Below, piece after piece: positions 1,410 through 61,061 of a stretch of DNA of 64,000 nt. Position 1 is the stretch's first letter, and every line of letters starts with the position of its first letter. Both the position numbers and the translations under genes were made by a program. The notes beneath the pieces were generated by a model that saw only the letters and a list, made by a program, of their open reading frames with translations, was not told where the DNA came from and searched no databases. Source of the stretch: Heliocybe sulcata. Its lineage: Eukaryota; Basidiomycota; Agaricomycetes; Gloeophyllales; Gloeophyllaceae. The DNA is taken from positions 186,001-250,000 of the forward strand of contig ML213503.1 in assembly GCA_004369045.1 (NCBI GenBank). Direction: 5' to 3'.

Positions 1410-1706
1410 CCGTCCCTTAACCGTATGTCTTTGAACAGCTCGTTGGACTTGCGATGTAGTGTCCATCTCACATTGATTATTTATTGACTGCCTTCCGTAT
1501 ACCACCAGCCTGTGGACGCTCTTCATGCATATGTCGTACTGGATATTTATGTGCATTTTCGTGGACGTATAAAGCACACGCAGATATTGGTTCGAGGCCG
1601 GAGGTCCAGGGGAGTGAGCCAGTCGTGGTTTGGAGTTGACGATGAATGCTCAAATCGTTGCACCCCGACGAGAGTTTCATAGGCAGACTGGCACTAATAT
1701 ACATGT

Positions 1707-3789
1707 CTACGCAGATTTCTCCTCCATCTTATCTGCATCCTCGCGTACCTCCACTGAGCCCGATTCAGCGCTCACGTCTTTCTCGTGATGCAGTGCGTCT
1801 GTTCTATCAAAGAGGTGTGGCCTCCAGCCGTACGATTTCCATGGCTTGACGTTCGCCCGATACATCTCATCCACCTGTCACGCGATGCACCTGTGAACAA
1901 CGGATCCAACAGTCATCAGGATAAATGGCGTACCTCCTCAAGCTGAAGCCCCTTCGTTTCGGGAATGCAGAGCCAGACGTACACGAAGCCGAATATCAGC
2001 ACTCCTGCAAAGATGAGGAGCACGAGTGGCCCGATGCGTGCAGCGATACGTGGCGAGAAAAAGGATAGCAAGAAGTTCCAGATCCAGTCTGCATCATAGT
2101 CAGTAAATTGAAGTAGTGATAGAGGGACTAATTGCGACGTACTGGAAGCACTGCCAAGCGCAATACACTTGGAACGAACTCGGAGCGGGAAACTTTCTCC
2201 GAGATACACCCATGGGGTCGGACCCCATGATAGGGAGAACGAAAATACGTGGAGGACAGCAAAGGCGATAAGAGTGTCTCCGCCTGCTTTGTTCCTTGCT
2301 GTGAGCTCGGAAACTGGAGTGCCAGTGGGTGCAAGGGTGAAATGTCCGACAAAACCGGCCACGATAGCGCAAACCGCTTCTAAAGCAGCACCAATCAGGA
2401 GTGACTACAGGACGACGTAAGAACATAGATCTCAAGGAGCGCATGGAATGGACATACATCCCGACGTCCCCAATACTCGATGAGGTATAAAGCCGGCACG
2501 GTTCCCACCACCGAGACAGCTCCGAGAATAGTTTGGATAGAGTACGGCGACAATCTGTCCGAGGACAGTCAATACATGACTAGAATCAAAAGAGACGGGA
2601 CGCTTACGTGGTTCCTGCACTCTTGAAGAACGTATCTCCGTAGTAATCTGACGGACACGTATCAGCAGGAACAAATACGCTACAGCACCTGATAACTTAC
2701 AATAGAAATTCTGCCCGTTCAGCTGCTGAATCGCCTGCAACATGATCCCGTTGATCGTCCTAAACCAGAGCTTATTCCTAGTCGAGAAGCACTCCAACCA
2801 CCCAGCCTTCCCTCCCTCGTTCTCTGCCTTGATGCCGTACTCTAGCTCCTCTATGATCTCCGTCACAAGGGGATCATCTACGTCTACAGAGTTCATCTGA
2901 GCGACGACTTGTACCGCTTGCTCTCTGCAACCAGTTCCCAGCAGGTGACGGGGAGACTCTGGGAGGAAGAACATCCCGGAGAGGAGGACGAGACCCCATA
3001 CCATCTGCAAGCCAACGGGGATACGCCAGGATCCAGAGTTGTTGAGGTTATGTGATCCGAGCTCTATAACATAACTGATGAAGATACTGATGTAATAGAC
3101 GTTTGAGTCAACGATGGGTCGAATCATGGAGGACATTCTGCTCACCCGCTGATAACCTGGATCTGGTATACCACTAGAAGAGCACCTCGAATACGCTTCG
3201 GTACGGTTTCGCCGTTGTACAGAGGGACGATGGCGGACATGGCACCGACACCAAGGCCAGCGATGAATCGACCGATAACGAGCTGCACTAAGGACGTGTT
3301 GGTGGCTGTCTGGATGGCGACGCCAGCTGTGAAGATTGCGCTCCAGAATAGCAGCGAGCCTCGACGACCTAAGCTGTCGGACGTAAAGGCTTGGCATAGC
3401 GAGCCGACAAATGTCCTGTGTGAGCATGGATCAGGGAGAGACATGGCGCACAAGTTAGGAAAGGCGTACCCAGCTGAAAGTAGAGAAGTAATGATTGACT
3501 GTCGTGAACTCGTGAGGACCCTCGCGCCAGCTGGGCCTTGGCCGAAGCGGTCGATGAAGTCGGGCATAATAAGACATCCCTGTGGAATGAGGAAACGTTC
3601 AGTCAAAGTGTGGAAGAAACCAGCAAGATCGCACTGACTGAGATGACACCCATGTCATAGCCGAATAAGAAGCCACCTGAAAGGAGATCCGGTCAAAATC
3701 ACAAAGGACGAGTCTCCTGACATGATGCACATACCGAAGGCAATGAAGACGGCCATTATGATAGCCTTGTTGTTCGTTGAGAGACCCAT
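1707..3789 (-). CDS. MFS hexose/sugar transporter, paralogue 1 (ten exons)
   Basis: Sugar porter of the major facilitator superfamily, predicted to import hexoses by proton symport across the plasma membrane. Exons on the minus strand: 3789-3735, 3676-3639, 3579-3470, 3415-3146, 3086-2701, 2647-2608, 2554-2458, 2404-2143, 2088-1934, 1874-1707. They sum to 1581 nt (526 residues). Family marks are GFLFGYDMGVIS in helix 1, GRRGS after helix 2, PESPRHL before the central loop, QQLNGQNFYYYYGD in helix 7, GRRD and the closing PETKGL. Start chosen at MGLSTNNKAII, aligned to the start of the close paralogue at 11044-12804. The gene carries five more introns than that paralogue. The short tail ends in an acidic/Lys stretch. 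The exact substrate cannot be read from sequence. Confidence 0.9.
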
Positions 3790-11043: not shown

Positions 11044-12804
11044 ATGGCGCCCATGCCTCATAACGTTAAGGTCATTCTATTGGCCATCTTCATCGCCTTT
11101 GGTGAGTGTATGTCGCGGTATATCTGGCCAGGTGATCTGACCTCTGTCTTGCTATGTAGGCGGTTTCTTGTTCGGTTATGACATCGGTGTCATTTCAGGA
11201 TGCCTGATTATGCCGGACTTTGTCGAACGGTTTGGAGAAGGTCCCGCTGGCTCCAGGGTCCTGAGCGCATCACGCCAGTCCATCATCACGTCTCTACTCT
11301 CCGCTGGGTAGGTCGGTCGGCCTGAATCTGCATGGATGCGCTGACCTACCTTATCCAGGACGTTCGTCGGTTCCCTAGCCCAGGCATTCACCTCCGATTC
11401 GATGGGTCGCCGTGGCTCTATTTTGTTATGGAGTGCCATCTTCACTGTCGGCACGGTCATTCAGACGGCAACGAATACTTCCCTTGTTCAGATCACGATA
11501 GGCCGCTTCATTGCCGGTCTGGGAGTCGGTGCCATGTCTGCCATCGTCCCGCTTTATAATGGAGAGACCGCGCCGAAGGCACTTCGTGGTACGCTTCTCG
11601 TCGTGTATCAACTCCAGGTCATCATTGGGATCTTCATCTCCTACGTTATTGACCTCGGCACGCACGCCATTAACAACTCCGCGTCCTGGCGCATTCCTGT
11701 CGGTCTCCAGATGCTCTGGGGACTGATCCTCCTTTCCGGAATGTTCTTCCTCCCCGAGTCGCCGCGCCATCTCGTCGGGCAAGGCAAGGTCGAACAGGCT
11801 AGGAAGGTCGTCGCGGAGCTCAACGCCGTACCAATGGACGACCCGCTGGTCACTGAGATCATCGACGACCTGGAGTATGGCATCAGGGCCGAGAACGAGG
11901 GTGGAAAGGCTACCTGGCTGGAGTGCTTCTCCACGAGGAACAAGCTGTGGTACAGAACGATGAACGGAATGATGCTGCAGTTCATTCAGCAGCTGAACGG
12001 CCAGAACTTCTACTGTACGTCCTGTTGTTCCAGTTTTCCGTACTGAGCCCTTCTCACGACCCCCTTCAGACTACTACGGCGACACTTTCTTCCAGAGCGC
12101 TGGTACAGAGCTCAGTGCATATGTCATCCAAACAATCTTGGGCGCTGTCTCCGTTGTCGGAACTCTCCCCGCACTCTATCTTATTGAGAGTATGGGCCGT
12201 CGTAACGTACGATGCCTTCTTCTCTAGCACTTTTATCGGTACTGACATATCTCCCCAGTCTCTCCTGACCGGTTCCGTCCTCGAAGCAATCTGCGCCCTC
12301 ATCGCCGGCCTTGTCGGCCACTTCACTCTCGCACCCACCGGCACACCTCCCTCCCAACTCACATCCCGCAACAAACAAGGCGGCGACACTCTCATCGCCT
12401 TTGCCGTCCTGCACGTCTTCTCCTTCTCCATGTTCTGGGGCCCCACACCCTGGGTCTACCTGGGGGAGAGCTTCCCCCTGCGTGTCCGCTCTAAATCAAT
12501 CGCTCTTGGCTCCGCGACGAACTGGATCTGGAACTTCCTGTTGTCATTCTTCGCTCCGCGCATAGCAGCCAAGATCGGCCCGCTCATTCTCCTCATCTTC
12601 TTCGGCATGCTTGTGTTCGGGTTCGTGTATGTGTACATCTTCATCCCAGAGACCAAGGGCCTCAGTTTGGAGGAGGTCGATGAGATGTACCGCTCGGGTG
12701 TCAAGCCATGGCATTCGTCGAGCTGGCGTCCACACCTGTACGAGAAGGAACCAGGGGTCACGGATGTTCGGGAGGTACGTGGAAAAGAGGACGAGGCGCT
12801 ATAA
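11044..12804 (+). CDS. MFS hexose/sugar transporter, paralogue 2 (five exons)
   Basis: Plasma-membrane sugar porter of 514 residues; exons 11044-11101, 11160-11307, 11359-12014, 12070-12206 and 12259-12804 sum to 1545 nt in frame. Motifs: GFLFGYDIGVISG, MGRRGS, PESPRHLVGQG, QQLNGQNFYYYYGD, SMGRRN, GPTPWVYLGESFPLR and PETKGLSLEEVDEMY. It aligns along its whole length with the minus-strand transporter at 1707-3789, including the unusual HFTLAPTGTP loop, so the two are recent paralogues. All four introns here are shared with that copy, which has five additional ones. The C-terminus is KEDEAL. Substrate (glucose, fructose, xylose or other) cannot be told from sequence. Confidence 0.93.
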
Positions 12805-12966
12805 TCTTCTGCGACGTTCCTGATTTCGCGCATTGTAATGTATACTATCACACTGTTGTATTACCATGGTAGCATCGTAACGCGGATCTTTATACCAAGT
12901 TTTCAACTGTTCGATGACAGTCATCGACTGCTCGACGAGCGATTTGAGTGAATGGAAGGCTTCACA

Positions 12967-15960
12967 CTACACTAAAGTTAGCTCGACAACCCCCTTTCCA
13001 CCCTCGAATGGCACAACCCACGCGCCAGCATCTTGAGTGATGTTGCCGGTCGGAGCGATAGATCCGACGCCGGACACAGCGGCTGTCTGGGTGATGACAA
13101 GGCGACCATGGGGAGCGGCGGCCGCAGTCGGGGAACCTTCGGGTCTGGGGATGATCGTGACTGTCAACGTCCTATTCTCCGTGTCATATTGCACAATGGA
13201 GAATGCGCCAGCATCCAAGCTGAGCAGCACGCCCAGCGGTGCGACGAATACCCTGCGCCTAACAGGATCCAATGTCTGGACAGTGATCGTTGGAGACGTG
13301 GATACGACGTTTCCGCCAAACGCTTGCCACCCAAAGTACGGGTGGTCGACGATGTACGTCCCGATCCCAAGCGAATGCCCGACGTAATTTGGTCCATAGT
13401 CACCAGAATACCCATCCCATTTCAAGGTGTTCTCCCAGGAGTGGAATGACGCCGAGGCAAAGCCCCCCTCGTCGATATTCGACAAGGGACCACTCAGGCC
13501 TCCGTAGCCTGTGCGCAGGAGATAGTAGTCGGTGGGATCCGATTGGAACTGGGTAATCAACGGCAACGCGTTCAGGCCGCTGCCGTAGTGGTGGATTTGG
13601 CGCTCAATTCGTTGCAATTTCCCGCCGTACACGTTATCCCTGAATGACCTTCAGTATTCTTCGCGTTGACGAGTGAGGCCATTCCGTAACACTTACCAAT
13701 ACCGTCGTGCATTCCCATTGTATCCCCAGTGTGGAATGGTGGGCTGGTATGCGATGATCGAGTTTATGGTATTGATAGCGGTAGTAGTATCGTTGAAATA
13801 CTTTGCCCAGGCATACACTCCTTCCTGGCCAGTGGAATCCCAAGCCATTTCTGACCCAAATCTATGCGCAAGAACCAGTTCAGTCAGGATGTCCTCAAGA
13901 AGGAATACATAGGCGTACGGATATCGCTCGCCAGCCCATATTGTCTCCCGGGCTCGCATCTGACTCTCTACGAACGACGCATTAGAGGTGAGACCTTCTC
14001 TCTTGAGGTCGTCGAGTAAGAACCGAAGAGTAGTCTCATCCATCAAGCCATCATCGACATAGCCCACATCATCTTGAGTCATGGCTACCACAGTCAAGAC
14101 GGCCTGGTTGATGTACCACTCCCACGTATGAAGCTGGACGAGGTCGGGATAGTTCCGCGCAACACGGTAAAGTGCCCAGTACGCGTTGATTACGTGGATG
14201 TAGTCGTAAGCGCGGTCGGTGATCCAGGCGTTTGCCTGATTCCAGGACCACCACTGAGTCCAGTCGATGTCCGAAGGGTAGTCGTAGTCTGGTACGAGGT
14301 CAGGTTGATAAAAGAATACAGACTGCATAATAGGTCAATCGACATCCTCAATGCTGCAGCAATCTAGTCACCTTCTTGACGGTCCCTGCGAAGCTTGATT
14401 AGCATACAGTGATTTGCATGTAAAATCCAATTTACCGTTATAGTTCTGAATTGTGCCCCACAAGGTCTGATTGATGAATATCTCCATCAACGCGACTTCC
14501 TCCGCGTTAGGCTGCACAAACTGCTTCATAGCAGCGGCCAACCATGATCCCGCCCCAGCTTCGTCACTCAACCCGGCAATCCACACGCGCGGATCATTCT
14601 CGACAATAGCGTTCGCTTCCCGATCATAACTGATCACCGAAGGCGCTCTATGGAAGGGATCCGAAGTATCGTTGAACCATTGCGCAGTGGTCAGGAAGCT
14701 GCCAAGGTCCGCCATCACTTGTGGTCCAGCTTTGGTAAGGTAGTAGTGAACGGTTTGTACGGTGCCGTCTTCGTACGCGATTGTGAGACGAGTTCGGCCC
14801 CATGCAGCACCTTTGACAGTGTACCCAACCCACGACGCATTCTTCGATTCCGAGTTGGATGTCCAGGTCATGGCACCACTTGGCGAGACCGTGATGTTCG
14901 CCACTTTCGATGGGTAGTTCAGGAAGAGCTTGCCATCCTGGTCGGCGGGCAGGATGTATCCTGGGATACCGACTGCGACAGGGCGTTTCGCTTGGACAAG
15001 AGCGTCCTCGATGCCGCGAATGGAGGATGCCAGTCGGAACTGGAACCCGTAAGACCTGACTTCTCCAGGCTGCAATATCACAGAGGTTGGCTCGTTCCAA
15101 GGTACTACATTGGACCACTCGTTCTCTGCGTATGCAAGAGTATGGAACTGCCATTCAAATAGCCCCTCAAAAGTCTGAGACTGATAGTACGGCGGGTTGG
15201 ACGTGTCTTCTGGCAAGAATCGCCACCCTTCTAGCTGGGAGTTGGAAGATGGTTGCGGGAGAACTAGGAGTGGAGGCAAGGTGCCTAGTAACGGCGTGAC
15301 TTGGACGTAACCAGCATCGAGACCAATGTACGGGTCGAACAGACTGCATTCTTCATTGGTTTGAGCAGCTGTTCTGCCGGTGAAGATCTGCGGACGGGGA
15401 ACCCGACGTCAGTCCATGATATATCAAAGATAAATCGAGAACGGTACATTATTAAACTCTAAAGGAGCCCCAATGGCACCGATCTCCACCGGCACATCCT
15501 GTGAATTCTGGACATTGAAGACAAGCTCCAATATACCTTCGTCGAGAACCCACTCCCGAGTAATGTTCAGCAGAGAGCCAGAGGGCAAAGTTGGAGACAG
15601 GTTCGCAGCCGCGAGAACGTGACCCGAGGCAGGTAAGGCGGTCACCGGCTTTCGAGCCGCAGCGCTGTCTCCACTAATCCACGCAGTATCTCCTACCTTC
15701 CTAGCACGGAAAGTAATGTCACCCAGGTGGTAATTGCTGTCGTTCTGACGCAAAGTCATCATATCTGTCGGAATGAAGTTGAAGCCAGAGGTAGTATTCA
15801 GAGAATACACCGTCTGGGAGTCCTTGACGAGCTGCAGCTCGAAGGTCGATGTCGTGAAAGTGGTGAAGCCATTCCCCAAACCCAGAGTACCGTCGGCCGC
15901 CAAAGAAAGCAACGGACATGCCGCTACGATGAGACAGAGTTGACGCCTGAAGCTAGTCAT
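12967..15960 (-). CDS. Large secreted DUF5695-like protein (glycosidase-like)
   Basis: Exons on the minus strand: 15960-15448, 15387-14436, 14385-14372, 14322-13697 and 13639-12967, summing to 2778 nt (925 residues) in frame. The third exon is only 14 nt. A signal peptide is plain (MTSFRRQLCLIVAACPLLSLA). Many Asn-x-Ser/Thr sites and Trp/Tyr-rich segments (TQWWSWNQANAWITDRAYDY; DPFHRAPSVISYDREANAIV) point to a secreted carbohydrate-active protein: an N-terminal beta-sandwich, then a helical toroid-like region from about residue 400, then a C-terminal beta domain. Order and length match fungal DUF5695 proteins as I remember them; that family has no firmly assigned reaction that I can cite. Its neighbour, a GH51 arabinofuranosidase, is divergently transcribed. 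A glycosidase role is inference. Confidence 0.68.
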
Positions 15961-16937: not shown

Positions 16938-19875
16938 ATGTCTCGCAGAGCCGCTGTTGTCCTCGGCGCCGCTGTGCTTGCATCCTGGGGCCTTCTGGGC
17001 ACCCAGGCCGTGCTAACTGCTCCAGATGTCCTCAACTTACGAATCACGACGAATATGACGGGGGTCATACCCTCAACATTGTACGGATACATGTGGGAGG
17101 TATCCATCACGCGTTATCCACTATATAGCCTTGGTTGACCCCACGGATGCGTAGGATATTAATCACAGGTGAGGACGGTCCGAGAGTTGCTGAACTGTCC
17201 GGGCCTGACTAGTGTGCAGTGGTGACGGAGGCTTATACGGTGAGCGAGGCCTCCATCATCCCACGGATGATCTCCTTGAGACTTAGTTGGCCACAGCGGA
17301 GCTACTGCAGAACCGTGCATTCCAAGGAGTGCTTCCGGGAACGCAGAATGCGTATGTCTTCGTTGACCATGCGCAGCGTTTATTCAATCTGACGTCTATT
17401 TAGCCTCAATGCCTGGCAACCCTACAACGGTGCCAGGCTGTCAGTCACTAACAAGGTCGAAGGTGTCACTTCCGCCTTACCGAACAGTCTTCAATTTACG
17501 ATACCCAAGATCGTCTTTGGTCCAATTGGTTTCGAGAATACAGGCTACTGGGGTATGTCGCAAGATCGCAAGACGAAACTAACGACATCCATGAAACTGA
17601 TATTCGAATAGGTATCAAGGTGCAAGCAGGATGGACCTACAACGCTTCTTTCTACGCGAAGTCCGATACGTTCACCGGACCCATCACAGCTTCCCTGAAA
17701 TCCACGACCGGAACGACCTACGCAACGGCAACGATCAAAGACATCTCTTCCGACTGGAAGCAATTCACCTTTACATTCGAACCCAACACCTCCGCGCCCG
17801 ACACGAATAATGTATTCCACGTGGAAGTGAACGGACCCGAGGCTGCGGGGCAGACGATCCACTTCGGCATGTTCTCGTTATTCCCGCCTACGTACCTCGG
17901 TAGGCCAAATGGGATGCGGGTCGACCTTGCGGAAGCTCTGGCTGGGACGAACCCTGGGGTTTGGCGGTTCCCGGGCGGTAACAACTTGGAGGGGGCCAGC
18001 TGGGCTATGCGATGGAAGTGGAACGAGACGATTGGGCCGTGAGCCACTTTATTTATGCTTAATTTGGCGGCGCCTTACTCTTGCGTTTATACAGGATCGA
18101 GAACAGGCCTGGCAGGGTAGGAGACTGGGGTAGGAAGAAGTGCTTTGCTTTCGGAGAAGTAGCTGACACTGTACTACGCAGGCTACCCTAATACCGACGG
18201 CCTCGTAAGTTCAGACTGTGCATCTGACAAGTAATGACTTGACTCAGCGTTCCGCAGGGTTTGATGGAATATCTAAACTGGGCGGAAGACTTGGGCGCGG
18301 TATTTCCATGTCGCTTCGTCCCATGCAGTCAGTTTTACCCACCTCGTTTGTAGGAGCCCATCCTCGGCATATGGTCCGGCATATCCATCCAGAACTACTC
18401 TGACTATTCTTCATGGCCCATCGTCCCTGAGGCAGACCTCCAACCGTACATTGATGATGCTATCAACGAGATTGAGTTTATCACCGCGCCTGCGAATAGT
18501 AGCGAGTGGGGTGCACTGCGTGCCAAATACGGCAGGGAGGAGCCTTACCAGTTGAAATACATTGAAGTGTGGGTGCCCATTCGTCTACGAGTTTTTGCAA
18601 ATATTTACGGATTAAGACAGTGGCAATGAAGATCAGGTATGCGCACTGTGTGAGTCGGTTGACGTACAGCTGATCCTGTGCGGTGGTATAGTTCCAACCA
18701 GAATCGTAAGTCACTCCTTATTTTCTCCCGTACGCGATCTAACGAGGTCCTCGTAGGTACGCGGGTTATCGTTGGAATGCGTTCGTCACCGCAATTGGAG
18801 AGAGATTCCCGGATCTGGAGTTCATTGCGACCACATATCCATCCACCGCCTTGAACCCTCCGTACATGAAGAGTGAGTCTCGATATCAGGTCTGCTTTTA
18901 CCTCTTTGACGTCTGTGTAGTCGACTACCACCAATATGAATCAATATCCTGGTTTGAGAATGCCGCATTCATGTTCGATAACTATCCAAGGAACGGCACG
19001 CAGTATTTCGTAGGAGAATACGCTGGTGGGTACTTGCACAATCTCTGAGTCAGTGCCTTCTAACATCGTCTGCCAAAGCCACATCAACCAACGATTCTGT
19101 ACCCCTCGGTACCATCGCCTCCGGCCGATTCCTCTATCCCACTCTCGCAGGTGCTGCTTCCGAGGCCGCTTTCATGACAGGCATGGAAAGGAATTCAGAT
19201 GTCGTGTTTGCGTCCGCCTGTGAGTGGAGTGGTGCCCGTCTGTGGGCCCATTGAATGACCTGGTACCTCTAGATGCCCCGAGTCTGCAGCACATCCGTAA
19301 CTACCAGTGGACGCCCGACATCATGACGTATGATGCTGGTAGGCTCGTCTTGTCGACATCCTACTACGTCCAGCAGGTAAGTCTCTCATTAAAGTTGAGC
19401 TACCGAAGCTATAGCCTGAAACGTTATCCTCGACGACAGATGTTCAGCCTCAACCGCGGGACGCACCTTCTGGCCACTAGCCCTGCTTCCACCAACGATT
19501 CTGCTCCTTTGTACTGGGTCGCCAGTCACAACAATGAGACGAATACTGTTTTCTTGAAGGTTCGCTGCCATCATGGCGTTCATTCCATCAACTTATTCTC
19601 AACAACTACGACAGGTGGCTAACACCGGACCCGATGACCTGACGGCGTACCTTTCCTTCGACTTCAATGTCAGCAGCCTATTCGGCACAGCAGTGTCGCT
19701 CAGCACTCCTACCCTGAGTCCCATCACCGGCATGTTCAACATATCCAACACGTTGGATGAGCCGGAAAACATCATCCCTGTCTCGTCGGCCTTCGCAATA
19801 CCTTATCCGGACAGGTACAACTACACATTTCCTGCCACGAGTGTCACGGTCATCGCTCTTGAAGCGAACATGTAG
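16938..19875 (+). CDS. Secreted alpha-L-arabinofuranosidase, GH51 (eighteen exons)
   Basis: Releases terminal alpha-L-arabinofuranosyl groups from arabinan and arabinoxylan outside the cell. Eighteen exons, from 16938-17099 to 19615-19875, sum to 2019 nt (672 residues) in frame. The signal peptide is in exon 1 (AAVVLGAAVLASWGLLGTQA). Family hallmarks: EDINHSGDGGLYAELLQNRAF, a carbohydrate-binding-like domain (FTFTFEPNT), FPGGNNLEG, the acid/base motif VGNED (Glu in the 16-nt exon 18621-18636), IDYHQYE, and the nucleophile motif FVGEYA (exon 18921-19025). Very small exons: 17155-17168, 17220-17239, 18182-18204, 18621-18636 and 18692-18705. Other exons: 17297-17351, 17404-17552, 17612-18038, 18095-18129, 18258-18299, 18354-18568, 18757-18872, 19079-19219, 19273-19376, 19440-19559. 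The active-site residues are intact. Confidence 0.93.
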
Positions 19876-22219: not shown

Positions 22220-22990
22220 ATGGCGTCACCGGTCTGGCTCCGTGCGCTGCAGAAGACGCTCAGTGAGTATGACAGAGTCAGCGGTGAGTGATGGGACTTC
22301 GTGAGGGTCGAGCACAAGCTGACTCTACCCGTAGTGTTCCAGCTAGCAACCTTCGATGCACATCATGCACCCCACGCCCGTTCTCAGATCTACCGTACCA
22401 CTATTACACCGAAAGGGTACCCTTCGTACCCTCTATTGGTGTCTTCCACTGATGTGCGAACACCGAAGGTTATCGAGCTGATAGATAATCCTTCGAACGC
22501 CTCGTCAAAGTCAGAAATGTGCTGGTGGATCGACAAGACCTCCGAGCAGTTTCGCATCTCCTCTAGGACATACGTGATACCAGCTCCATCCCATCCTTTC
22601 TATGCCAAACTTGACTGGGCAGCATCGCCGGGCATGAAAGCACTCGTCGAAGAAGATAAATTCGACTGGGAGGCTAAGCGGAAAAGCATCTTCGAGTCCA
22701 TGTCGGAGCATATGAGGGCATCTTGGCTTCGGCCACCACCAGGAAGCGTACTGAAAGGTGGATATGACGAGTCAAAGAAATGGGAGAAGACGGTGCCGAA
22801 ATGGGATGATGCGAAGACCGACCATGAGAAGGCACTATGGGAGACTGCCTTCGGAAACTTCGCTTTAGTGGTTATGGAACCGGTGAAAGTAGACTATCTG
22901 GAGATGGCGATTGTGCCGAACAGGAGAAGAGTCTACACGAGAGAGGAAACGCAAGGGCAGGTATGGATTGAAGAGGTCGTCGTGCCATGA
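22220..22990 (+). CDS. Pyridoxamine 5'-phosphate oxidase-like, Alr4036-type FMN-binding protein
   Basis: Two exons, 22220-22262 and 22335-22990, give 232 residues in frame. The sequence follows the Alr4036 FMN-binding branch of the split-barrel flavin fold: an N-terminal WLRALQ helix, the motif ATFDAHHAPHARSQIYRT, the strand block SEMCWWIDKTSEQFRISSRTY, a long Trp-rich helical segment with SWLRPPPGS, and a C-terminal FALVVMEPVKVDYLEM strand pair. Members bind FMN and are annotated as pyridoxamine-phosphate-oxidase-like, but a true PNPOx reaction is not established for this branch. It has no signal peptide, so is probably cytosolic. Its neighbours do not suggest a partner. Confidence 0.86.
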
Positions 22991-23936: not shown

Positions 23937-26900
23937 TCAGTCATCGCCAGGCTGGATCACCTTCAACACTGACGGCGGTATTGTGCTGAGGTTTGCAATC
24001 GCCCCAGTGGAAGTAGATCGTCCCTTCGCTTCAGCCTTGATACCGCAGATATCCCAGAATGCCACCCTGAAAGCAAAGTACGTCCCAATCTTGAAAGCGC
24101 GAGCTGCCTTCCATCGAGAGACCTCGCGCTCGCTGGTGACCACTGAGATACCCGTCGGCCCTTCACGGTAAAGCTTCACTACGTCTTGAATCATCTCTTC
24201 TACTGACTTCTGTTCGCCACCAGACTTCTTCCCGACCTTCTTTGTCGGTGACGCCGAACTAATTGGCTTTGTGGATGAGCCCCAATGAATCGATCTCCAA
24301 GCCTGATACACCTTTTTGACATGGTCCTCGACAATGTCAAGATCTGCCTTCACGTATTCTGCTCCTCTAGCATTGGACGCAGCTCGGCGCTCCGCGTCCT
24401 CCCAGGGTGCCGTGACATCCTGGTCAAGATCGTTCAAGCCTCGCTGAAGCTCATCGTACTTGCTGAGGAGCCGATCTCTCTCTGTCTTGCCAACAGCCAT
24501 CAGTTCGCAGAGTACACAGGGGCCCAGCGTCTTCATCCTTGGAAGCCTCCGTTTGTGGCCATACTCTTCATAGTCTGGGCCGCCCTGCTTCTTCATGCAA
24601 TCAGGGATAGCGCAGTCGTACTGATTCTGATCTCGCTTCATGACGTCTCTGTTGACACGTAGACCTGTCTTATCTGAGTCAAGCAAGTGCGTGAACCTTC
24701 ACCGGGAATGAGCATGAGATGCGGTCTCAGGCTGGACGAGCGCTTACATGTGAGCGAGGCGTTCTGTTGGCGCATGTGCCAGACCCCAGCTGTGTACTGC
24801 AATGTCATGGTACTTGGAATATATACCGACCTTCCTGTCACCCATCCCTTGAAGCAGCACTTTGATCAAAGCAGAGTGCGCCTCTGAGCGGGGGAGGTTC
24901 GAAGTGCGATTGACAAAGGATGACACTTGCTCAATGTCTCGGTGGAAGTTCTTTGCAATGAAGTCGGGCTCGGGGACGCACAGTCGCGCATTCCGGAAGG
25001 GCTCCACGATGTCTCGATCCCATACAACCATTACGGTATCTATACGGGCGATTCATAACGATGCGCTGCGAATGAGACAGAGACATACCTCCGTCGTAGT
25101 CTACATGCATGCTCAGAAACGTTGAGGTGATGGCACGATTACATCTACGTACCTCCACCGCCGAGATAGCTGGCTAGGGATCGATCGCCTTTCGTAGATA
25201 CCACAAGGACATCACTATAGTCGGCAAGCTGGGGACGCTTCACTGCCATAACCTACTCCGCATTCAGCAACGTCAGCAAACACTAAGCAAGGTGTTTGTG
25301 CACCTTCTGTATGTCTGACGCGACTCTCGTCGGATTCCTACTGAGCTGAGGCGCCATGAGCTGCCTATGCACGTGAAGGATCGGCCAGCTCATCACGTAC
25401 AAGGACAGGACCTTCTAGAGTGTCAGAACACATGCCTTCGAACTCCCGTGTCGTCCTCAGATAAACTTCTCCTTCCCCAAGAATACCGAAGGGATCTTTG
25501 GGGAGTCTGCTTAATCACAAGCAGTTGCAGGCGAGAAATGCACAAACCGGGTACAATGAAGCCCTCCAGAGACCACGGGATTGTGATGTGATATCCCAGA
25601 GTCGCAGCCTCCATCAATCTAGTAAGGATTTCTCTTACCTTGCTGGACAGAAACCGGGATTTCAAAGGAAGAAAGCCTGATCGCAGCAGCTCAAAGGCGC
25701 TCTCGTGCAGGGAAAGCGGAGGCGAAGACGGATCGAAGGCAAAGTCCGCGTTAAGCGCGTCCTTGTCATCGGCATCATAATCTTCGTCATCGTCGAAAGC
25801 ACTGAACGGGTTTTCATCTTCGACCGCCTCTCGAAACTCCCTTCCACTGAAACCAAGAGCTCGGCTCATGCCGCCAGCGAGCCGCTGTAGCTTGCTCCCG
25901 GAGACACGGCCTGCTCTGTCGATAGCACTCATCAGCAAAAGAGCGGCGTACGGGCCATCCCAGTTCGTCAATTCTTCAGCAGTCTCTCGAAGGCCATCGG
26001 ACAACAGTTTCGTGAGGACAGGCGTGGGGACGCCATTGTGATGGAGATTAAGAACGGTCTGCATAGAAGACCTGCCAGGATGGCGCAAGCGGCTTGCGCA
26101 GATCAGATCAAAAATAAGGTGAGCGCGGTGCACAGTGGAAAACTCGGGAAGCGAGATCTTCTTCTGGGAGTCCCGAATCCAGATTTCGGGGGCACCGTCT
26201 GGTTTCTGGTGCTCGGGATTCGGGTGCAAGATCCAGAGGCCCTTCGATCCAGCGACTCGTCCCTGAACAGCCGTAGGAGTATTCTTATAGCCCATGCGAT
26301 TCTTGATGGCCAGTAGGGCCGCGCCATTCATAAAGCCGCATCCATCTGTCATGATCTGCTCAGGGCCAGCATTTCTTGTGGCCACTCCAGGCGCAACTAT
26401 ATTACGAAGCTTTGTCAGCGGCGATCTGAACAGCATCTGGCAACACCCCTACTTTGGTCAGGTATGAAATGGATGTTTCGTGCTTCAAATTCCAGGACTG
26501 GGACAGACGTGGAGAACCCCAGGGCGAACCGCGTTGTATACTTGCTGATAGGCTGTCACGGCAATATTTGAGGGACACTTCAATAGACAATTCACATGCA
26601 CTGACTTGCTTCGCATTCATGGCAAGTGGGTTATACCATCTGATCAGTTCCTCCAGCGACAACCGAGCCTGGTCGCCTTGCTGAAAATTCGGCCGCCGCT
26701 CAAAATCCTCTGATATCTCCACCAGATAGAGTTTCCCGTCCTTCGCATGCAAAGGGACGTACGTCCGGCCCATCAGCACAAACTTGCGACAAAGAAAACC
26801 AAGCACGTCTTTGTACTCGTCCCTCAGGAGCTTGTCCGGTACGTGCAGCGCAAGCAAGCGCCGCGACCCCAGAAACCGAGCGAACCGGTTCGAGCGACGC

Positions 26901-29030
26901 ATCTCGCATTCTTTCAGAAAAATGCTATACGACGAGCTTCCCTCTGGTTTGTGCAGGTGGACGACTTGCTGGATCTTACCCCCGTACCAATTGGGCGCTT
27001 CGTCGTACTCGCCCATTAGACCAAGGCCGCGCCCTTTGTTCTCGAGGATCGCGCTCTGTTCCCTGTCCATGTCGCGCCTAGGGAGGACATCAACAAGACA
27101 AGCGTGCCATGGCTTACGCTCACATACCACAGCGCAAGTCCCGAGACCTTTCTCTCCGGAACAGGCAGACCCCGCATAACAGGAATCACCTTGTGCGCAG
27201 CCTCGGCGTTACGTCCCCTCAGCTGCAGTAGCTTCTCCGGAGTCAGATCGTCCCAGGTCCAATGCCCACAGGTCACACCCCTAGCAACTTCGTACTGGAC
27301 ACCCCAGGCAAGCTGTTCCAGTTCCTTCTGATGCTTCGAAGAATGAGCTATTACCACCCGCTCCAGCGCCAAGGCATTCCCGCCGAATGTCGCCTTTACC
27401 ATTTCTTCGTCAAAGCGCGAGTCGGCAGGCGTAGGTGGATTCGGCGCCAGCGGGATGTTGTCACCTGGTATATCGCCCGTAGTGTATGATTTTGCGACAT
27501 TCGGCTGCACCGCGGGTTTACGAACCGGGCGCTTTTCGGGGCTGACAGGACGCTTCGGCGTCCCATCTACATCCCGAGAAGATCCTTGGACGAAAGCAGG
27601 GGAAACGGCAGAAGAGCCAGACGGATCTGAGCGTGGAGCATTCGCATGATGCGAGGGCAGACCTGCTTCAGATCTCTTTCGAGCCGGACGTTTTCCCACT
27701 GGTGTACCGAACACGTCACCCTCAAATATATCCTCTCGACGGGGAAATATTCCCTTCGGCAAGACGAAAGGTTTTAGCGCGCTCGGACTCGTCGTTGATT
27801 CCTCCACGCTACGCTTGCTCGGGGATCTGGGCGGCGAGACCGGTACGCCATAATTCTGCCCATCCAGAGCCGCAGGCGCCGTCCGCCTTGTCTTGGAGGG
27901 CGACTGTGGAAACTGCCGAGGGGAAAGATCCAAGGTCTCCGGATACTCCAGGGCTGTCCGTGGAGTCTTGACCCGTGATCCCTCCCTGAGCTTGTCGAGA
28001 TTCGGATAGATAGAATCCAGTTTCCGGGGAGAAGACGCTGAAGACTGTGTTGGGCCAGAGGAGCCCGACCATACAGACGATATGGACGTGTTTTGAGAGT
28101 CGAAGAAGCTGAATGATGTGTGCCTCGTGGACGTGTCGGACGACTCCGTATCCGTGTCAACCACTATCGTGAAGGTTACAGCAGTACTAATAAGGATAAG
28201 GGAGACCTACTTTCGATGACTAGAGGTACAATTAGACAGAATACGACGCAGGCCAGCGAGTATCCGCACCTTCATTCTCCTCGACCTCCATCTGATCAGA
28301 CGTGATATTTTCGGGACTTAGAGTCATCCTGGATGGAGACAAGATGGGTTCTCCCTGTTCTGTCCTTTTGCGAATCTTCAAAGGTCTGGGCCTCTTGGAT
28401 CCTGCAGAATGCTGGGCTAGAATGCAGTAAGCCACGGTCACGAATCCATACGTTTAGGAGAGGACTTACCACTTCGCTCCGTGCTAACACTTCTGTCCTG
28501 GAATGTGCGTGCAGGAGCTGACCTCTTTGCCGTGGAAGGCGTCCGTCCCCGAGGGCTGCCAGTATTGATCGCGTGATAAGCGGTGGGAGGTGACTTGAGA
28601 GGTGAAGCTATGCCAAAGAAACCAAGCGAGGCGGGTTAGCTACGAACGTGACATGCTCTGCGAGATCCGTGATCGCAAAAACAAAATATGAATTATGTCC
28701 AGCAAAGCCTCCGTACAGCTTGGAGCCGGGTCATCATACCACACGCAACATCGTGTGTATAGTCGCAAGTCACGATCGGTACGGCCTGGGTATGAATTCA
28801 ATAGTCTGCAAGACCTCATTTCATTGACCGTGTCCGCGCTCAATGAATCCGAGCACTACAAAGCGGTTCCCCAGCCCGTAACTCCCATGAAAAAGAGCGA
28901 CATTCGAGGTAGCCTGCAGCAAACAAGATGCGCTCTGCGACTTACCCGCAACAATCTGATCCACTTCATCCAAATCCTGCTGGTCCATCCCAGTATCACC
29001 CGCCCATAGCTCATCGTCAGTCGTCGACAT
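23937..29030 (-). CDS. RNA-dependent RNA polymerase of RNA silencing (QDE-1/RDR family)
   Basis: Cellular RdRP that copies aberrant single-stranded RNA to make dsRNA for Dicer. Exons on the minus strand: 29030-28946, 28607-28470, 28416-28270, 28163-27128, 27062-26606, 26552-26453, 26396-25548, 25495-25401, 25345-25304, 25252-25153, 25100-25089, 25039-24748, 24696-23937. They sum to 4113 nt (1370 residues) in frame. An N-terminal 300 residues rich in Ser and Pro are probably disordered. The catalytic core follows: MTDGCGFMN, a Gly/Pro block GLWILHPNP, the IPWSLEGFIVPDPFGIL block, GEGEVYL, SRNPTR and the metal-binding DYDGD followed by TVMVVWDRD. The C-terminal helical head carries a CAIPDC cysteine pair. 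The DYDGD motif is spread over three exons, the middle one 12 nt long. An optional 9-nt exon at 28211-28219 would also keep frame and add three residues. Gene symbol not assigned. Confidence 0.95.
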
Positions 29031-34111: not shown

Positions 34112-35447
34112 TTACAAGCAGCAGCTGACAGCCCGCATATGCTGGACATTAGACAAGGACTTGACCCTCGGATACGACACCGACGGAACAGGGTCCCCGC
34201 GCTGCCACAACCCATCAGCACACACCACACCGCACGTCTAACAAAACCCCACTCACGATCAACGTCCGAAACACCCTCACATCCCTCGTAACCCTCAACT
34301 CCACACCCCTCACCGCGCACTCCATCTTCAAACTCGGCATCGTCGGATGCTTCAGCCCGCCCTCCCACACCTGGAGCGTCAGCACCTTAAGCTCGTCCCG
34401 CGCCCGCACCATACCCAAAACAGCCTCGAGCTGCGTATCCCTATCCACGCCGAGCGCGACGTGCTGGATCCCCCCGGGAAGCATCTTGTACACCAGCGGG
34501 GTCCCGAGGGAGTGCTCGACCCTAAACTCCCTAAGCTTCCCGCACTGCCCAATAACCGCCGCACCCTCCTTCGACCCGCACGACGGGAGCGCCAGCGACT
34601 CCAGCGTCCCCGCGTGCCGCCCCACAAGATGCTGCAACAAATCATTCGACGGCTCCCGCTCCAGATCCAGCACCCGCAAGCTCCTGCCCGAGTTCTGCAG
34701 CAGCCAGTTCATAAAGTCCGTCGACGGCTTGCTCTGGAAATTCATATGCAATTCTTCCAGAGACCCAGAGTAGGAAATCGACGCGTGCAGAGGAAGCCGG
34801 GGAGGCACACCTCGTACCTCGAGCGAGGCGACCGTCGGCCAAGCGTCCAAGAGCTGGAACAGGTACTCGTCCTCCGCACACGAGCTGCTATACTGCAACG
34901 CCGCCACCCGCGGCCCGCTCCGCAGGAGCGACACCGTACGCCCCGAAAACGCGGGAGCCACAGTCGCCTCGGAATCGGAAATGGCACCTCGGTCATTATG
35001 GCCGACGCCTATAGAGTCGCCTCGGCCGTATATAAACAGACCCAGTTCATACAGCTTCGGACAGGCCGCGACGGCGGCGGCGAAGGACGCCTCGGAGAGG
35101 TGGCCGGGCTGGTTGTGGTCGAGAACGACCCGCATCCGGAGAACAGAGTCGGCGAGCTGCCTGCCCGCGTCGAGCGCCAGCTTGAAGGAATCAAAGGCCG
35201 ATTCGTTCCTCAGCGTGACGCTGCGGAAGAGAAGTTTCTGCGCGGGGCCCGTCCATGCGCGGCAGACCAGCGCGCAGTTGCGGAGGAGCTGGTCGTCGGG
35301 CTGGAGGTCGGCGCTGTAGTACCCCGCCTCTAGGATGTGCATGATGAGTTCGACTGGTAAATGGACGGCTTTTCCCCGGGGCGGCTGAGGACGCTGTCTC
35401 TGCGCAGGAAGCGCCGCCTTCAAGTCCAGGACAATATCATGCGACAT
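34112..35447 (-). CDS. F-box protein with leucine-rich-like repeats
   Basis: Predicted substrate adaptor of an SCF ubiquitin ligase. The F-box is at residues 28-70 (VHLPVELIMHILEAGYY, then LRNCALVCRAWTGPAQKLLF) and is followed by about 300 residues with a loose LRR-like rhythm (SLEELHMNF, SLRVLDLERE, TLESLALPSCG, KLREFRVEHS, ELKVLTLQVWEGG). Exon 1 is 35447-34257. A strong donor gtgagt at 34256 and acceptor at 34202 would add exon 2, 34201-34112, in frame (426 residues). If not spliced, the frame ends at 34215 (410 residues). The start MSHDIVLDLK is the first Met in frame. The substrate cannot be told; such F-box/LRR proteins are numerous in Agaricomycetes. Confidence 0.84.
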
Positions 35448-37230
35448 CGCCTACGATACCGCGTCTCGTCTCAGTAAACTCTTCCTCCTGCCACACGAAA
35501 GCCACTCACCCGAGCATGCGACGTGAACGGTTTGAAGTGCAACAGACCCATATTGGAGAGGACGAAAGACGCCGTTGTGAGTGCGCCCCGCTCGACGGGC
35601 TTGGTGAGGGGAAACATTGAAGAAAATAAGATACGCAGAGTCTTATATGGGTGCCGTATATATGCAATTGTGACCGCCACAGCGAGGCGACACTGAAACC
35701 GGATCTGGAGATTGTGAGAAGCCCGCGACCTAGATTAGACTTTGTTTGGTCCGGGACTGTGGCGCGCCGCTGCCTTTCCTGGGAGCGGCGATGAGTGTGG
35801 TTGTGGGTCCGGTTATTCAAGTCCGCGACGTTTGTCGATGCAGCTGGGCGAGAAACGTTCTCTGCAGGCATCCTTTATACAACGACTGCAGCGTTGCTAT
35901 CGAAGATTGATCAGCGATGTAAAATGTCGCTTCCCTGTTCTTGAAAGCCTTTTTGTCTCAGTCTTTTTGTTACGGCAATGACCGTCCCGGATATTCTCAC
36001 CACCAAACCATGTGGCTGTGGCGGTATACTGACTCACTTGCTTTTACCTCAAACTTATCCTCTACCACTCTGACTCGCTTGGGGCGTCTCTTCGCCGACG
36101 CGCAGAATATGCTTATGGGGAACAATGCATTTGATTTTCGACCGGCGACCCAGGGACATCGAGCACGCCTTTTCAGCGAGGCACAAACCCGGTTCCGATG
36201 CTGTCAGTGTCGGCCCTTTTGCTATGCCTGGCGACTCCCGGACGCAATGATACACGCAGACATGACAGCTGCATATGTGTACGAAATACAAAATCAAAGA
36301 CGACGCAAATTCCGGCAAACCCGGATAGCAAGTATTAAAACTTGTTGTTTTCCGCAGAGTTTTCATCGTTCATGCCTTTGTTCCATTCGAGGACGTGCAT
36401 ATCGATGATATAGTCATCAGTTCAGGTGAGCGAGTGTATACGTATTGCGACGCCTCGGACACGTCTACAGAGGCGGGTCAATGATCCGAATACGCCAGAA
36501 GACTTGTCAGCTACGTACAGCAGCACCTTCTTCCGCTCCATTGGCCCAGCCGTTATGCGCTGTCAGCGTCGGGCGTCGGATCTTCTCTCGTACTGGAATG
36601 TACAAGCTGAAGCCCGAGCGCGCATTACCACACATATGCGGCCCTTCGCTCCAGCAGGTTTCGACTCGGTGGCGGTAAATACCGTAATACAGGATATCCT
36701 CCGTCACGATCCCTGCAAGATCTCCGGATACAGTCATAATGCAGTCCCATCATTCTCTCCCAAGCTCATTTACGTCCCCACTCACCCTTTCGGACTGTCA
36801 AAATGTCCGCCCGTCGCCAAGGCCAATCCCATACACTTGCGATCGGTGCGGAATGGGCGAGGGTCTGACCTCGGTAATATCCACATTTGTCAGGAAGGGT
36901 AGCGTGGTGAGGTATGGCTGCATCATGATCACCTCCGAACCACAGGCTTGATCATGCCTCGGATTGTTGCGGCACACTGATCGGAAAAGGGACAATGGGT
37001 GAATATGGTGCTGATATATGAATCAGTGCAAATATGATATATACTCTTCACAAAGCACAGCACCATCAAGATGAGCGCTGAATCTAGAGTGCACAACACA
37101 CAGTTGCAGGGCACATCTCGCAAAGTGCGGAGATATCCATTGTTGAACGTCGCCGTCACCGACAGCTCGAGACAAACGGGAGATCTCAACCTCATGACCG
37201 ATCATGCAAGGCGAAGCGGTAATACTTGGT
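35448..37230. other. Intergenic region, about 1.8 kb
   Basis: Between the F-box gene start and the COG8 gene end. It should hold the F-box promoter. Open frames on both strands (for example 36426-36902 plus and 36055-36366 minus) show no domain, helix or compositional support. I see no gene, RNA or repeat that can be defended. Confidence 0.45.
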
Positions 37231-38937
37231 TCATTGAGTACGACCCTGCGCCAAGGCATCTACACTATCCAGCTGCTCTTTCAGCTTCCCGCTAGCCTCC
37301 CATTCACCTTGCACTTTCACGCCATAAACGCCCTCAATCAGCGCCCTCCTCACAAACGGCACAAACACGCGCCCAAACACCTGCGCAGCAGCCCTAACCA
37401 CGCCGACCTCATCCTCCTCCTCCCTGTTCATGTCCAAAACCTGCACAAACGTCTCACAGCTTTCCGCCAACGAGCCGTCCAGCGCCTCAACAGCGTCCGG
37501 CAACAAGTCCTGAGGCGCCAACAATCTCAACCCGTTCAAGGTGGTCAGCAGCGCATTGGTGTACAGCGCGATCGGCGGGTAAGAGGCCAATATGTGGGGA
37601 GCGACGTGCGGCGGGGATGCCTCGAGATCAAACCCCTCCGGGGGGGTCGGCGGGCTCGAAGCAGCGCTTACGAGCAACTGGCTCGGTTTTCCGCCGCTCA
37701 AAGTGCGCGTAAAGGACGCCCCGGCCTCCGTAAACCCTTCCGCGACCCCAGATCTGACTTCCCCGTGAAAGATGGGCGCGAGATGCGCTTTGAAGTCCAT
37801 GCCCACTCTGGCGAAGGAGGTGGCGCAGTACGTTAGTTGCGTAAGGAGCGAGGAGAGTGCGGAGGGGTCGCTCCGGAGGGCCGGGAGGTTGGTCTTGAGC
37901 GTGGCGAGGAGGCGGTTGAGGAGGTTGGAAGTCAGCGTCGAGAGGAGGGTGCGGATGACCGGGGGCGCGGGTGTTTTCTGAGAAGACGACGTGCGTTCGA
38001 GGAAGATTGTGGTGTACTGTGTGACAAGATCGTATACGCTTTCTCGCCAAACGTCGATATATTTTCGTAGATATCGTGCGTACGAATCCTTGTCCCTGTC
38101 CTTATTGGTTCCGTCAATACCTTTCTTCTCCGTCTCGGCAGTGTCGAAAGAAGCATTGAGGTACACCATCCGGCTGCTCAAGAACGCCAGCGCAAGCTCG
38201 TCTTCCTCCAAGATCCCCATCCGGCGTAGGAAGTTGACTGCTTTGAACAATGCGGGGAGCTTCGCTTGCTCCCGGAGCGTACTCAGCAACTGCGCAAGCA
38301 TGCTGCGGATCGCAATGTCCACTTCCGCTTTCACGTCCATTATGATAGGGATATCCGGAAAGCGCTTTGCGAGGGTATTGGTGTGGGCCGACAAGTCTAG
38401 AGCTTCCTGGAAGTACCCGTTGCGCACACATGACTCGACGAGTGAGGGGATCTCTAGTAGGTCCCGCAGTTTGTCGTATTGATCGAGGACGACGCTGGCT
38501 TGGCGTCTTTCTGTCAGGACGGACTTGCTGGATTCACCGAACGAACGCGTGCTGGTCTCGAGAGCTGGGAGTGCATCCGAGATTAGGGAGGTTAAGGATG
38601 ACGTGACGGAGGACAGGGTGTCAGAGAGGGTGGAAGTGGTAGCATGGAGAGACAAGAAGGTCTTGTAATTGGTGTGGCAGAGTGTCGTGAGGGCGTTCGT
38701 GAGCTGAGCGGAGGTGGAGGACAGGGTGGCGGGCTCGGAGAGGAGGGTATCGAGCGGGAGGGTCGTCAGGTGAGACAGATACGGCGCCACTGAGGGTGAC
38801 GAGAAAGAAGACGACGATTCTGGCCCTTCCGATGATAGTACTTCTGCTAGGCTAGCGAGAGATGCGATGCTGGCTTCTGACGCCGCCTCCACTCTGGATT
38901 CCGGGGCACGGTCTGCAACTTCGGATGCTTCAGTCAT
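37231..38937 (-). CDS. COG8: Conserved oligomeric Golgi complex subunit 8 (DOR1 family)
   Basis: Subunit of the eight-protein COG tether that captures recycling vesicles at Golgi cisternae. Single exon, 568 residues, close to the fungal family length. Family features: the N-terminal PYLSHLTTLPLDTLLSEP block, a coiled-coil region (about residues 70-150) rich in Ser, Thr and Leu, the signature SLVESCVRNGYFQEALDL and LAKRFPDIPIIMDVKAEVD, then the helical rod including FLRRMGILEEDELALAFL and YLRKYIDVWRESVYDLVTQY. The C-terminal third has Pro-rich loops (SSPPTPPEGF) and APHILASYPPIALYTNALL. No introns, unlike most neighbours. Start at the first Met, followed by a short acidic/Ser leader. Assignment rests on the central signature. 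Confidence 0.92.
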   Translation of the reverse strand: MTEASEVADRAPESRVEAASEASIASLASLAEVLSSEGPESSSSFSSPSVAPYLSHLTTLPLDTLLSEPATLSSTSAQLTNALTTLCHTNYKTFLSLHATTSTLSDTLSSVTSSLTSLISDALPALETSTRSFGESSKSVLTERRQASVVLDQYDKLRDLLEIPSLVESCVRNGYFQEALDLSAHTNTLAKRFPDIPIIMDVKAEVDIAIRSMLAQLLSTLREQAKLPALFKAVNFLRRMGILEEDELALAFLSSRMVYLNASFDTAETEKKGIDGTNKDRDKDSYARYLRKYIDVWRESVYDLVTQYTTIFLERTSSSQKTPAPPVIRTLLSTLTSNLLNRLLATLKTNLPALRSDPSALSSLLTQLTYCATSFARVGMDFKAHLAPIFHGEVRSGVAEGFTEAGASFTRTLSGGKPSQLLVSAASSPPTPPEGFDLEASPPHVAPHILASYPPIALYTNALLTTLNGLRLLAPQDLLPDAVEALDGSLAESCETFVQVLDMNREEEDEVGVVRAAAQVFGRVFVPFVRRALIEGVYGVKVQGEWEASGKLKEQLDSVDALAQGRTQ

Positions 38938-39025
38938 TGTTCACCACAGCAATTGTATCATTATCTTATGGCGGTCCTAAAAGTCTGCATAGATTATGGA
39001 CGACGGGTATGTCGGAAAAAACTTA

Positions 39026-59810: not shown

Positions 59811-61061
59811 CTAACGCTCCACCGCTATCCAACTGGTCGCACACCCAGCCCAAATTGCTTTGACATTCCCACCGGGAGCAGACTGCGAGGGCCATATCTT
59901 GACAGGGACCGGAGAATCCTCTGTATTCCCTAATCCCAGATTACCATGCTCATTCCATCCCCATCCCCATACTTCGGTAGGCGATCGATCCGACCAATCA
60001 TCGGAAGGAGCACTCCTCGCCTGGAAGAGACAGAGGACGTGCTCGCTCCCGCAAGCCATGTCCAGCAGTCGATGGGTAGCAGGGGTGAATGGGAACTGGA
60101 CAAACATATCGGAGCTGCTTCGAAAGCCCAGCTGACCCTTGCTATTATCTCCCGCGGAGAGTATATGCAGGCCATCTTCACGTCCAACGACGACATACGT
60201 GCCATTCCAGCTGCAGTCCAGGGAGTGAATATCTCCCCACTGCTCAAGACTTCGCAGCTGGCCCTTGCGATTCGAACCAAGCGCGGTTAACTGACCATTC
60301 TCGTGCAGCAGCACTGTGTGGTGGTGGCCAAGACTAGCAGAAGTCACTCGCCCTAGAGATGGGTCAAGTGCTACGATGCATGGAGTCGAGACATATGGTG
60401 GCAATCGACTTGAAGTGCTCGTTCCGTGACCTAACTGCCCGTGCCTGGACATACCCCATCCTACGACGAACGGTTGCTTCTTGCGACCTATCTCAAGCAG
60501 AACGAGGACGTGGTGCAGGCCAGTAGCGACCCTTGTAATCCTGGTACATCCCCGATCCTCGTCTGAGAAAAGGTCGTCAAGACCAACTGGTTGAACTGCA
60601 TGACTATTCTCTGAATCGGATTTCGGGGAACCGGTCCCTAGATCACCATAGTCGTTCGAACCCATAGATAATAGAATATCGCTCTTGCCTGGGCAAGACA
60701 GCACCAAGTAAGACGTCTCCCAGCTGGCACTGGCCAGACGAACTGTGTATCCTCTAAGATCGTGCTGCTCCAGGTCCAGTTCGATATGTTGGAGAGTCGT
60801 CCAAGTGTCATCAACAAGAGAAGATCCCAATTGCCCTCTTCGCCCGTCCCCGCATCCCCAGAGTTCAATGGAAGTCGTGCCAGTTTCGTCAATGATTTCG
60901 AGAAGCACAAGGGTATGATTCGATCCTCCCGAAACATTCAGTATGCGGGAGATGTTTGAACGAAGACCCAAAGCCTGGGTAAATGTATGCTTGTCTTCAG
61001 TATCACCCGTTGAAAGCTGGTCACGAGCATTTGAGCCCGCGCAGAACAGTCGGACCGTCAT
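59811..61061 (-). CDS. RCC1-repeat protein (ATS1/Kti13-like)
   Basis: Single-exon 416-residue protein made of RCC1 blades: LFCAGSNARDQLSTGD at the start, ELWGCGDGRRGQLGSS, LLSMGSNDYGDLGTGS, FVVGWGMSRHGQLGHGT, LTALGSNRKGQLRSLEQW, HILSAGDNSKGQLGF and EVWGWGWNEHGNLGLGN at the end, so seven blades form a complete beta-propeller. In size and lack of extra domains it resembles yeast Ats1/Kti13, which supports diphthamide and tRNA wobble-uridine modification, more than the larger chromatin RCC1 (about 420-480 residues with a nuclear signal). Since RCC1 proper also has seven blades, the assignment between the two is not certain; no N-terminal basic tail is present, which argues against RCC1 itself. 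Convergent with SWI5. Confidence 0.8.
   Translation of the reverse strand: MTVRLFCAGSNARDQLSTGDTEDKHTFTQALGLRSNISRILNVSGGSNHTLVLLEIIDETGTTSIELWGCGDGRRGQLGSSLVDDTWTTLQHIELDLEQHDLRGYTVRLASASWETSYLVLSCPGKSDILLSMGSNDYGDLGTGSPKSDSENSHAVQPVGLDDLFSDEDRGCTRITRVATGLHHVLVLLEIGRKKQPFVVGWGMSRHGQLGHGTSTSSRLPPYVSTPCIVALDPSLGRVTSASLGHHHTVLLHENGQLTALGSNRKGQLRSLEQWGDIHSLDCSWNGTYVVVGREDGLHILSAGDNSKGQLGFRSSSDMFVQFPFTPATHRLLDMACGSEHVLCLFQARSAPSDDWSDRSPTEVWGWGWNEHGNLGLGNTEDSPVPVKIWPSQSAPGGNVKAIWAGCATSWIAVER

Follow-up and report, generated by a model that had tools for sequence, protein, structure and literature searches.

Locus and gene content

The window, by which we mean the whole 64,000-nt stretch of Heliocybe sulcata DNA analysed here, carries on its reverse strand an intron-dense gene (Table 1), for which a spliced script model yields 14 exons and 13 introns in a single open frame of 1383 amino acids. 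A middle piece of the product (726 amino acids) matched the PF05183 profile across residues 79–723 (profile positions 5–558 of 582; 308.9 bits, cut-off 23.8; E 9.9e-92), and comparison of the same piece with solved structures (up to E 10) returned seven distinct sequences: three QDE-1-like chains, two plant-type RDR2 entries and two further RNA-dependent RNA polymerase (RdRP) chains. The best solved relative was QDE-1 (5fsw, E 3.4e-36). The profile and structure matches bear out the identity first assigned to the gene, whose sequence marks it as encoding a QDE-1-type cellular RdRP, and the predicted enzyme is probably active. It shares with QDE-1 of Neurospora crassa (PDB 2j7n and kin) the PF05183 domain, the GGDYDGD sequence and the three Asp residues, and differs from it in having a long N-terminal stretch and, ahead of the second domain half, an acidic insert, both of which are features of the H. 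sulcata protein. The acidic insert (FDDDEDYDADDKDALNADFAFD; exon 8, about 25798–25720 on the reverse strand, between the two catalytic-domain halves) contains a DYD sequence that resembles the active site but is distinct from it.

All 13 introns begin with GT and end with AG, and 12 of them measure 40–56 nt, intron 1 being 338 nt long. Short introns in such numbers suggest, in our judgement, a basidiomycete style of gene. Exons 1–4 are less certain than the others because the N-terminal part of the protein is unconserved in the structure matches, and their basis is the open frame and the splice sites only. Exon 4, within this non-conserved part, is plausibly a second microexon, unproven because a single 106-nt intron in its place also keeps the frame.

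Table 1. Positions in the window of the RdRP gene and of the exons and introns discussed in the text.
Feature	Positions	Strand	Description	Basis
RdRP gene	23937–29030	-	predicted QDE-1-type cellular RNA-dependent RNA polymerase	spliced model; PF05183/QDE-1 homology
Exon 4	28211–28219	-	9 nt, putatively another microexon, phase 1 at either end; flanking introns of 50 and 47 nt	intron lengths and splice sites only
Exon 11	25153–25252	-	100 nt; its last base opens the first catalytic Asp codon	QDE-1 alignment up to LSGGD
Intron 11	25101–25152	-	52 nt, GTACGT...TGTAG, phase 1	spliced model
Exon 12	25089–25100	-	12-nt microexon ACTACGACGGAG; completes Asp, encodes Tyr-Asp-Gly and supplies the first base of the last Asp	
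Intron 12	25040–25088	-	49 nt, GTATGT...TATAG, phase 1	spliced model
Exon 13	24748–25039	-	292 nt; starts with AT, which finishes the last Asp, then TVMVVWD	

A Pfam scan covered 20 open reading frames (ORFs) of the window. An ORF at 14371–15408 on the reverse strand matches the uncharacterised family DUF5695 very strongly (E 1.6e-148). Further Pfam-matching ORFs lie at 37234–38940, 59814–61100, 34218–35450, 53976–54611 (-), 22292–22987 and 17452–18039 (+), and the further matches are to Dor1-like (PF04124), RCC1 repeats, F-box-like, ABC transporter, pyridoxamine phosphate oxidase-like and CBM_4_9. The window also holds two sugar transporter (PF00083) paralogues, at about 11200–12900 on the forward strand and about 1700–3700 on the reverse strand, which have the same residue at 364 of 457 aligned positions (approximately 80%; partial models, joined from a shared point). 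Three introns occur at the same place and in the same phase in both copies, and the reverse-strand copy has four more. This distribution indicates that introns have been freely gained or lost since the copies split and that their turnover is rapid. The ten transporter introns span 51–59 nt, a range near which introns 11 and 12 of the RdRP gene also lie.

A 12-nt exon within the catalytic motif

Exon 11 ends in GGC GGT GGA G (last base, 25153) and exon 13 begins with AT ACC GTA (first base, 25039). Read jointly, exons 11–13 give LASYLGGGDYDGDTVMVVWD, for which the QDE-1 counterpart is LADKLSGGDYDGDMAWVCWD; the spliced DYDGD of the model aligns with the DYDGD of QDE-1, an alignment that depends on the inclusion of exon 12. 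Direct reading and the spliced script both confirmed that the two outer Asp codons of the motif are split by introns, as the preliminary description had stated, and the exon boundaries and intron lengths that it gave were recovered unchanged (Table 1). Exon 12 is a microexon in the sense of an internal exon of 3–30 nt between spliceosomal introns, both of its neighbours being GT–AG introns. In unspliced DNA, a stop codon occurs just past exon 11.

Enumeration of chains of GT–AG introns (minimum length, 35 nt) linking exons 11 and 13 yielded two single-intron and three two-intron chains that keep the frame. Neither of the former produced DxDGD, whereas all three of the latter did. Intron 12 is common to the three two-intron chains and the 12-nt exon to two of them, the third having a 23-nt exon that brings in extra residues; only the pair of introns listed in Table 1 gives GGGDYDGD with the glycine spacing of QDE-1 (SGGDYDGD). 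When the 113-nt stretch was resampled 200,000 times under a first-order Markov model, the pattern AG/AY NNN GAY GGN G/GT (slashes, splice junctions) did not arise once. Taken together, the resamplings, the enumeration of chains and the order of the motif in QDE-1 make the observation sound: the assembly of DYDGD from three exons looks real, with homology and splice sites pointing to the predicted splicing, and exon 12 is probably present in the mature mRNA.

A wrong gene model or a broken gene copy, in which the likeness of 12 nt to DYDGD would be due to chance, is in keeping with intron 11 having no recognisable branch site. We regard this as extremely unlikely in view of the resampling result, the QDE-1-like sequence on both sides of the motif and the remainder of the gene, which is open across the 14 exons. 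The two introns were also considered as a twin intron (stwintron), a reading that we rejected, given that each has whole GT and AG ends and that 12 coding bases of the conserved motif separate them.

Expected frequency and origin of the exon

When 13 introns were placed at random on 4152 coding nt, 36.9% of trials produced one or more internal exons no longer than 12 nt, and 6.8% produced at least two; a small exon is expected about one time in three for such a gene. Random placement expects about 0.0008 intron pairs within a given 15-nt motif of the gene, a post hoc count that refers to one motif in one gene, in a genome with thousands of motif-bearing genes. The location of the exon is striking but compatible with chance. 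The motif itself repeats a GGN-GAY (Gly-Asp) step twice, 12 nt apart, with one intron at the same spot in each repeat, and the exon junctions (GTGGAG/ACTACG at intron 11 and ACGGAG/ATACCG at intron 12) share GGAG/A. Among the 13 introns, only these two have GGAG upstream of the junction. If introns favour GGAG/A-like sites, the coincidence of placement shrinks further.

Two intron insertions, one in each GGN-GAY step, would provide a simple origin for the microexon, and we infer that it arose in this way, at two like sites. We found no sign that intron 12 had originated by copying of intron 11. The alignment of the two introns scored 3.0 (shuffles, -6.8; s.d., 3.5), and 9 of the 66 intron pairs of the gene (intron 1 left out) scored at least as high, so introns 11 and 12 show no signature of mutual copying.

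Splice-site and branch-site strength

Splice sites were scored in two ways, with a leave-one-out matrix within the RdRP gene and with a matrix built on the ten introns of the transporters. By both measures, introns 11 and 12 have strong 5' sites, which scored 10.1 and 9.7 with the in-gene matrix (ranks 1 and 2 of 13) and ranked first and fifth of 13 with the transporter matrix. The 3' site of intron 12 ranked first in the gene (6.9) and that of intron 11 twelfth (1.8), and the transporter matrix placed them fifth and fourth, respectively. A YTRAY branch site 6–40 nt from the intron end is absent from introns 11 and 12, so their removal may be inefficient; the same consensus is present in 5 of the 13 RdRP introns and in 7 of the 10 transporter introns. 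The looser YTNAY pattern gave one candidate in intron 12, at 33 nt, and none in introns 6, 8 and 11. Introns 11 and 12 are therefore neither clearly weak nor perfect. RNA folding over 131 nt of the microexon region gave a z-score of -1.15, 26 of 200 shuffles being as stable, and with a fold this insignificant we rejected a hairpin that controls exon 12.

Consequences of skipping and of intron retention

Loss of the 12 nt keeps the frame, as had been proposed, and gives a product of 1379 instead of 1383 amino acids that reads GGGDTVMVVWD. Skippable exons tend toward symmetry and a length divisible by three. Exon 12 has the features of a cassette exon (12 nt, a multiple of three, phase 1 on both sides), although 6 of the 12 internal exons of the gene have a length divisible by three and its symmetry is not distinctive. 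QDE-1 is a dimer with D1007, D1009 and D1011 as its proposed catalytic Asp residues (PMC1750930, available text). Given such a dimer and three catalytic Asp residues, an RdRP lacking YDGD is expected to be inactive and might, in principle, poison the dimer.

The preliminary description went on to suggest that skipping of the exon would leave a potential dominant-negative silencing factor; we found no support for such skipping or for a dominant-negative action of its product. Taken further, the idea becomes a regulated switch in which exon 12 would be dropped in some condition to give a 1379-residue protein that retains just one metal-binding Asp of the three, pairs with the normal subunit and damps silencing. 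The frame is kept on skipping, a dead subunit could poison a QDE-1-like dimer, the branch sites of introns 11 and 12 are weak, and a microexon switch is described for Xlr2 of Trichoderma virens in the excerpted report (PMC11121469). Set against these points are the strong 5' sites (ranks 1 and 5 of 13 with the transporter matrix), the insignificant RNA fold and the 113-nt intron that skipping would require where 12 of the 13 introns are 40–56 nt. Coding-exon skipping is also rare in Schizophyllum commune, at about 1% of coding splicing events in the available part of that study (PMC5034255). A dominant-negative product of regulated skipping is arithmetically possible and unsupported, and we consider the switch very unlikely. 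Low-level skipping may nevertheless occur.

The skipped product could also arise by another route. The last two bases of the microexon are AG, an ending found in 4 of the 12 internal exons of the gene. If intron 12 left first, use of this AG, 12 nt downstream of the acceptor of intron 11, would generate exactly the skipped product without any pairing of splice sites across 113 nt. Such slippage should be a rare error because the acceptor score of the AG is low (0.5, compared with 4.0 for the true acceptor; transporter matrix). One reading would build on this error and make the active site of the polymerase a sensor of splicing: under stress, or during invasion by poorly spliced elements, intron 12 would be removed ahead of intron 11, the acceptor would slip, and a full-length RdRP without YDGD would then tune silencing through the dimer. 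We attach very little credence to it.

Retention of intron 11 leads to a stop at codon 1032 of 1383 and retention of intron 12 to a stop at codon 1086. Together with the missing branch consensus of both introns, these stops fit a form of autoregulation in which slowly spliced RdRP pre-mRNA feeds silencing or decay and lowers the level of RdRP. As far as the available text of each source goes, stalled spliceosomes trigger siRNA production in Cryptococcus neoformans (PMC6643885, citing Dumesic 2013), and S. commune shows intron retention more often than any other event (PMC5034255). The strong 5' sites speak against autoregulation, as do introns 6 and 8, which also lack a branch consensus, so that introns 11 and 12 are no outliers. 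We judge it highly improbable.

Comparison with known systems

Tiny exons are familiar in such fungi. Nearly one-third of the P450 genes of Phanerochaete chrysosporium have microexons of 2–10 amino acids, the shortest exon being 6 bp (PMC1184071, in part). This basidiomycete case resembles ours in having very short exons between introns of approximately 45–55 bp; it differs in concerning another gene family, and the portion of the report available mentions no doubly split catalytic motif. In T. virens Xlr2, a fungal microexon likewise affects a key functional domain, and the excerpt reports two isoforms measured at low and high glucose (PMC11121469), whereas the RdRP exon is predicted from the gene sequence. 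Exon II of rtnA, also short (15 and 33 nt) and flanked by close introns, is skipped in Aspergillus niger (15-nt exon) and N. crassa (33-nt exon; ten expressed sequence tags (ESTs) with and three without it), according to the accessible part of PMC6616335. The rtnA skip uses a donor-disrupted twin intron, whereas introns 11 and 12 of the RdRP gene are too short, and too complete, to be introns of that type.

A switch is therefore possible in fungi, and the same literature, as far as its available text extends, places exon skipping at low levels in this group (PMC6142364). In S. commune, exon skipping accounted for 1% of coding-region splicing events, although junction analysis gave 1,527 coding-region skips beside 7,851 alternative sites (PMC5034255); in Ustilago maydis it accounted for 12 of 193 events (PMC2219887). 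Mentions of microexons in Rhizoctonia solani AG8, C. neoformans and C. deuterogattii were set aside, the available passages concerning only a read-mapping setting. An exact-word search of the open-licence literature, which is weak evidence of absence, returned no report of a microexon or of exon skipping in a cellular RdRP. Exon 12 belongs to a known kind, the fungal microexon, and its placement in a catalytic motif is striking.

Relatives were also sought in viral and prokaryote collections, which are not designed for fungal genomes. Scans of viral_contigs gave 5 stretches with exon 8, 36 with alignment A1 and 66 with alignment A2, with no relative among them; scans of genome_contigs gave 59 stretches and no relative with A1, and 85 stretches with one relative by threshold with A2. 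This single hit (L001, 5001–5138, in a Spartobacteria MAG) reads LGGGDYDG by chance in a repeat-bearing ORF of 614 amino acids and is not an RdRP. A tblastn search of phage records gave no match.

Interpretation

Exon 12 is most probably a microexon that is included constitutively, in a QDE-1-type RdRP gene that is intact and rich in introns, each of which is spliced on its own. Intron definition is the mode presumed for fungi (PMC2219887; PMC6616335, both as available in part), and we infer that this mode, and with it constitutive inclusion of the exon, applies in H. sulcata. The spliceosome would pair splice sites across each short intron and remove introns 11 and 12 separately. With pairing across introns, the length of the exon would hardly matter; the mRNA would normally encode the full DYDGD, and any skipping would be splicing noise. 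Support for constitutive inclusion comes from the intron lengths (52 and 49 nt, within 40–56 nt), from the strong 5' sites, from the chance expectation for an exon of 12 nt or less (P = 0.37) and from the intron turnover seen in the transporter genes. Against it stand the missing YTRAY sites, the in-gene rank of the intron 11 3' site, the special placement in the motif (0.0008, the post hoc count given above) and the skipping of short exons documented for rtnA (PMC6616335, in part).

The RdRP gene offers a neat case of a short-intron fungus that keeps a catalytic motif in pieces. It also calls for caution in annotation: gene prediction that overlooks the 12 bases would have the RdRP recorded as truncated or as catalytically dead. 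Regulated skipping, if it took place, would represent a new mode of control for RNA silencing, and if the slipped acceptor responded to poor splicing as outlined above, splicing quality and silencing strength would be coupled through 12 bases.
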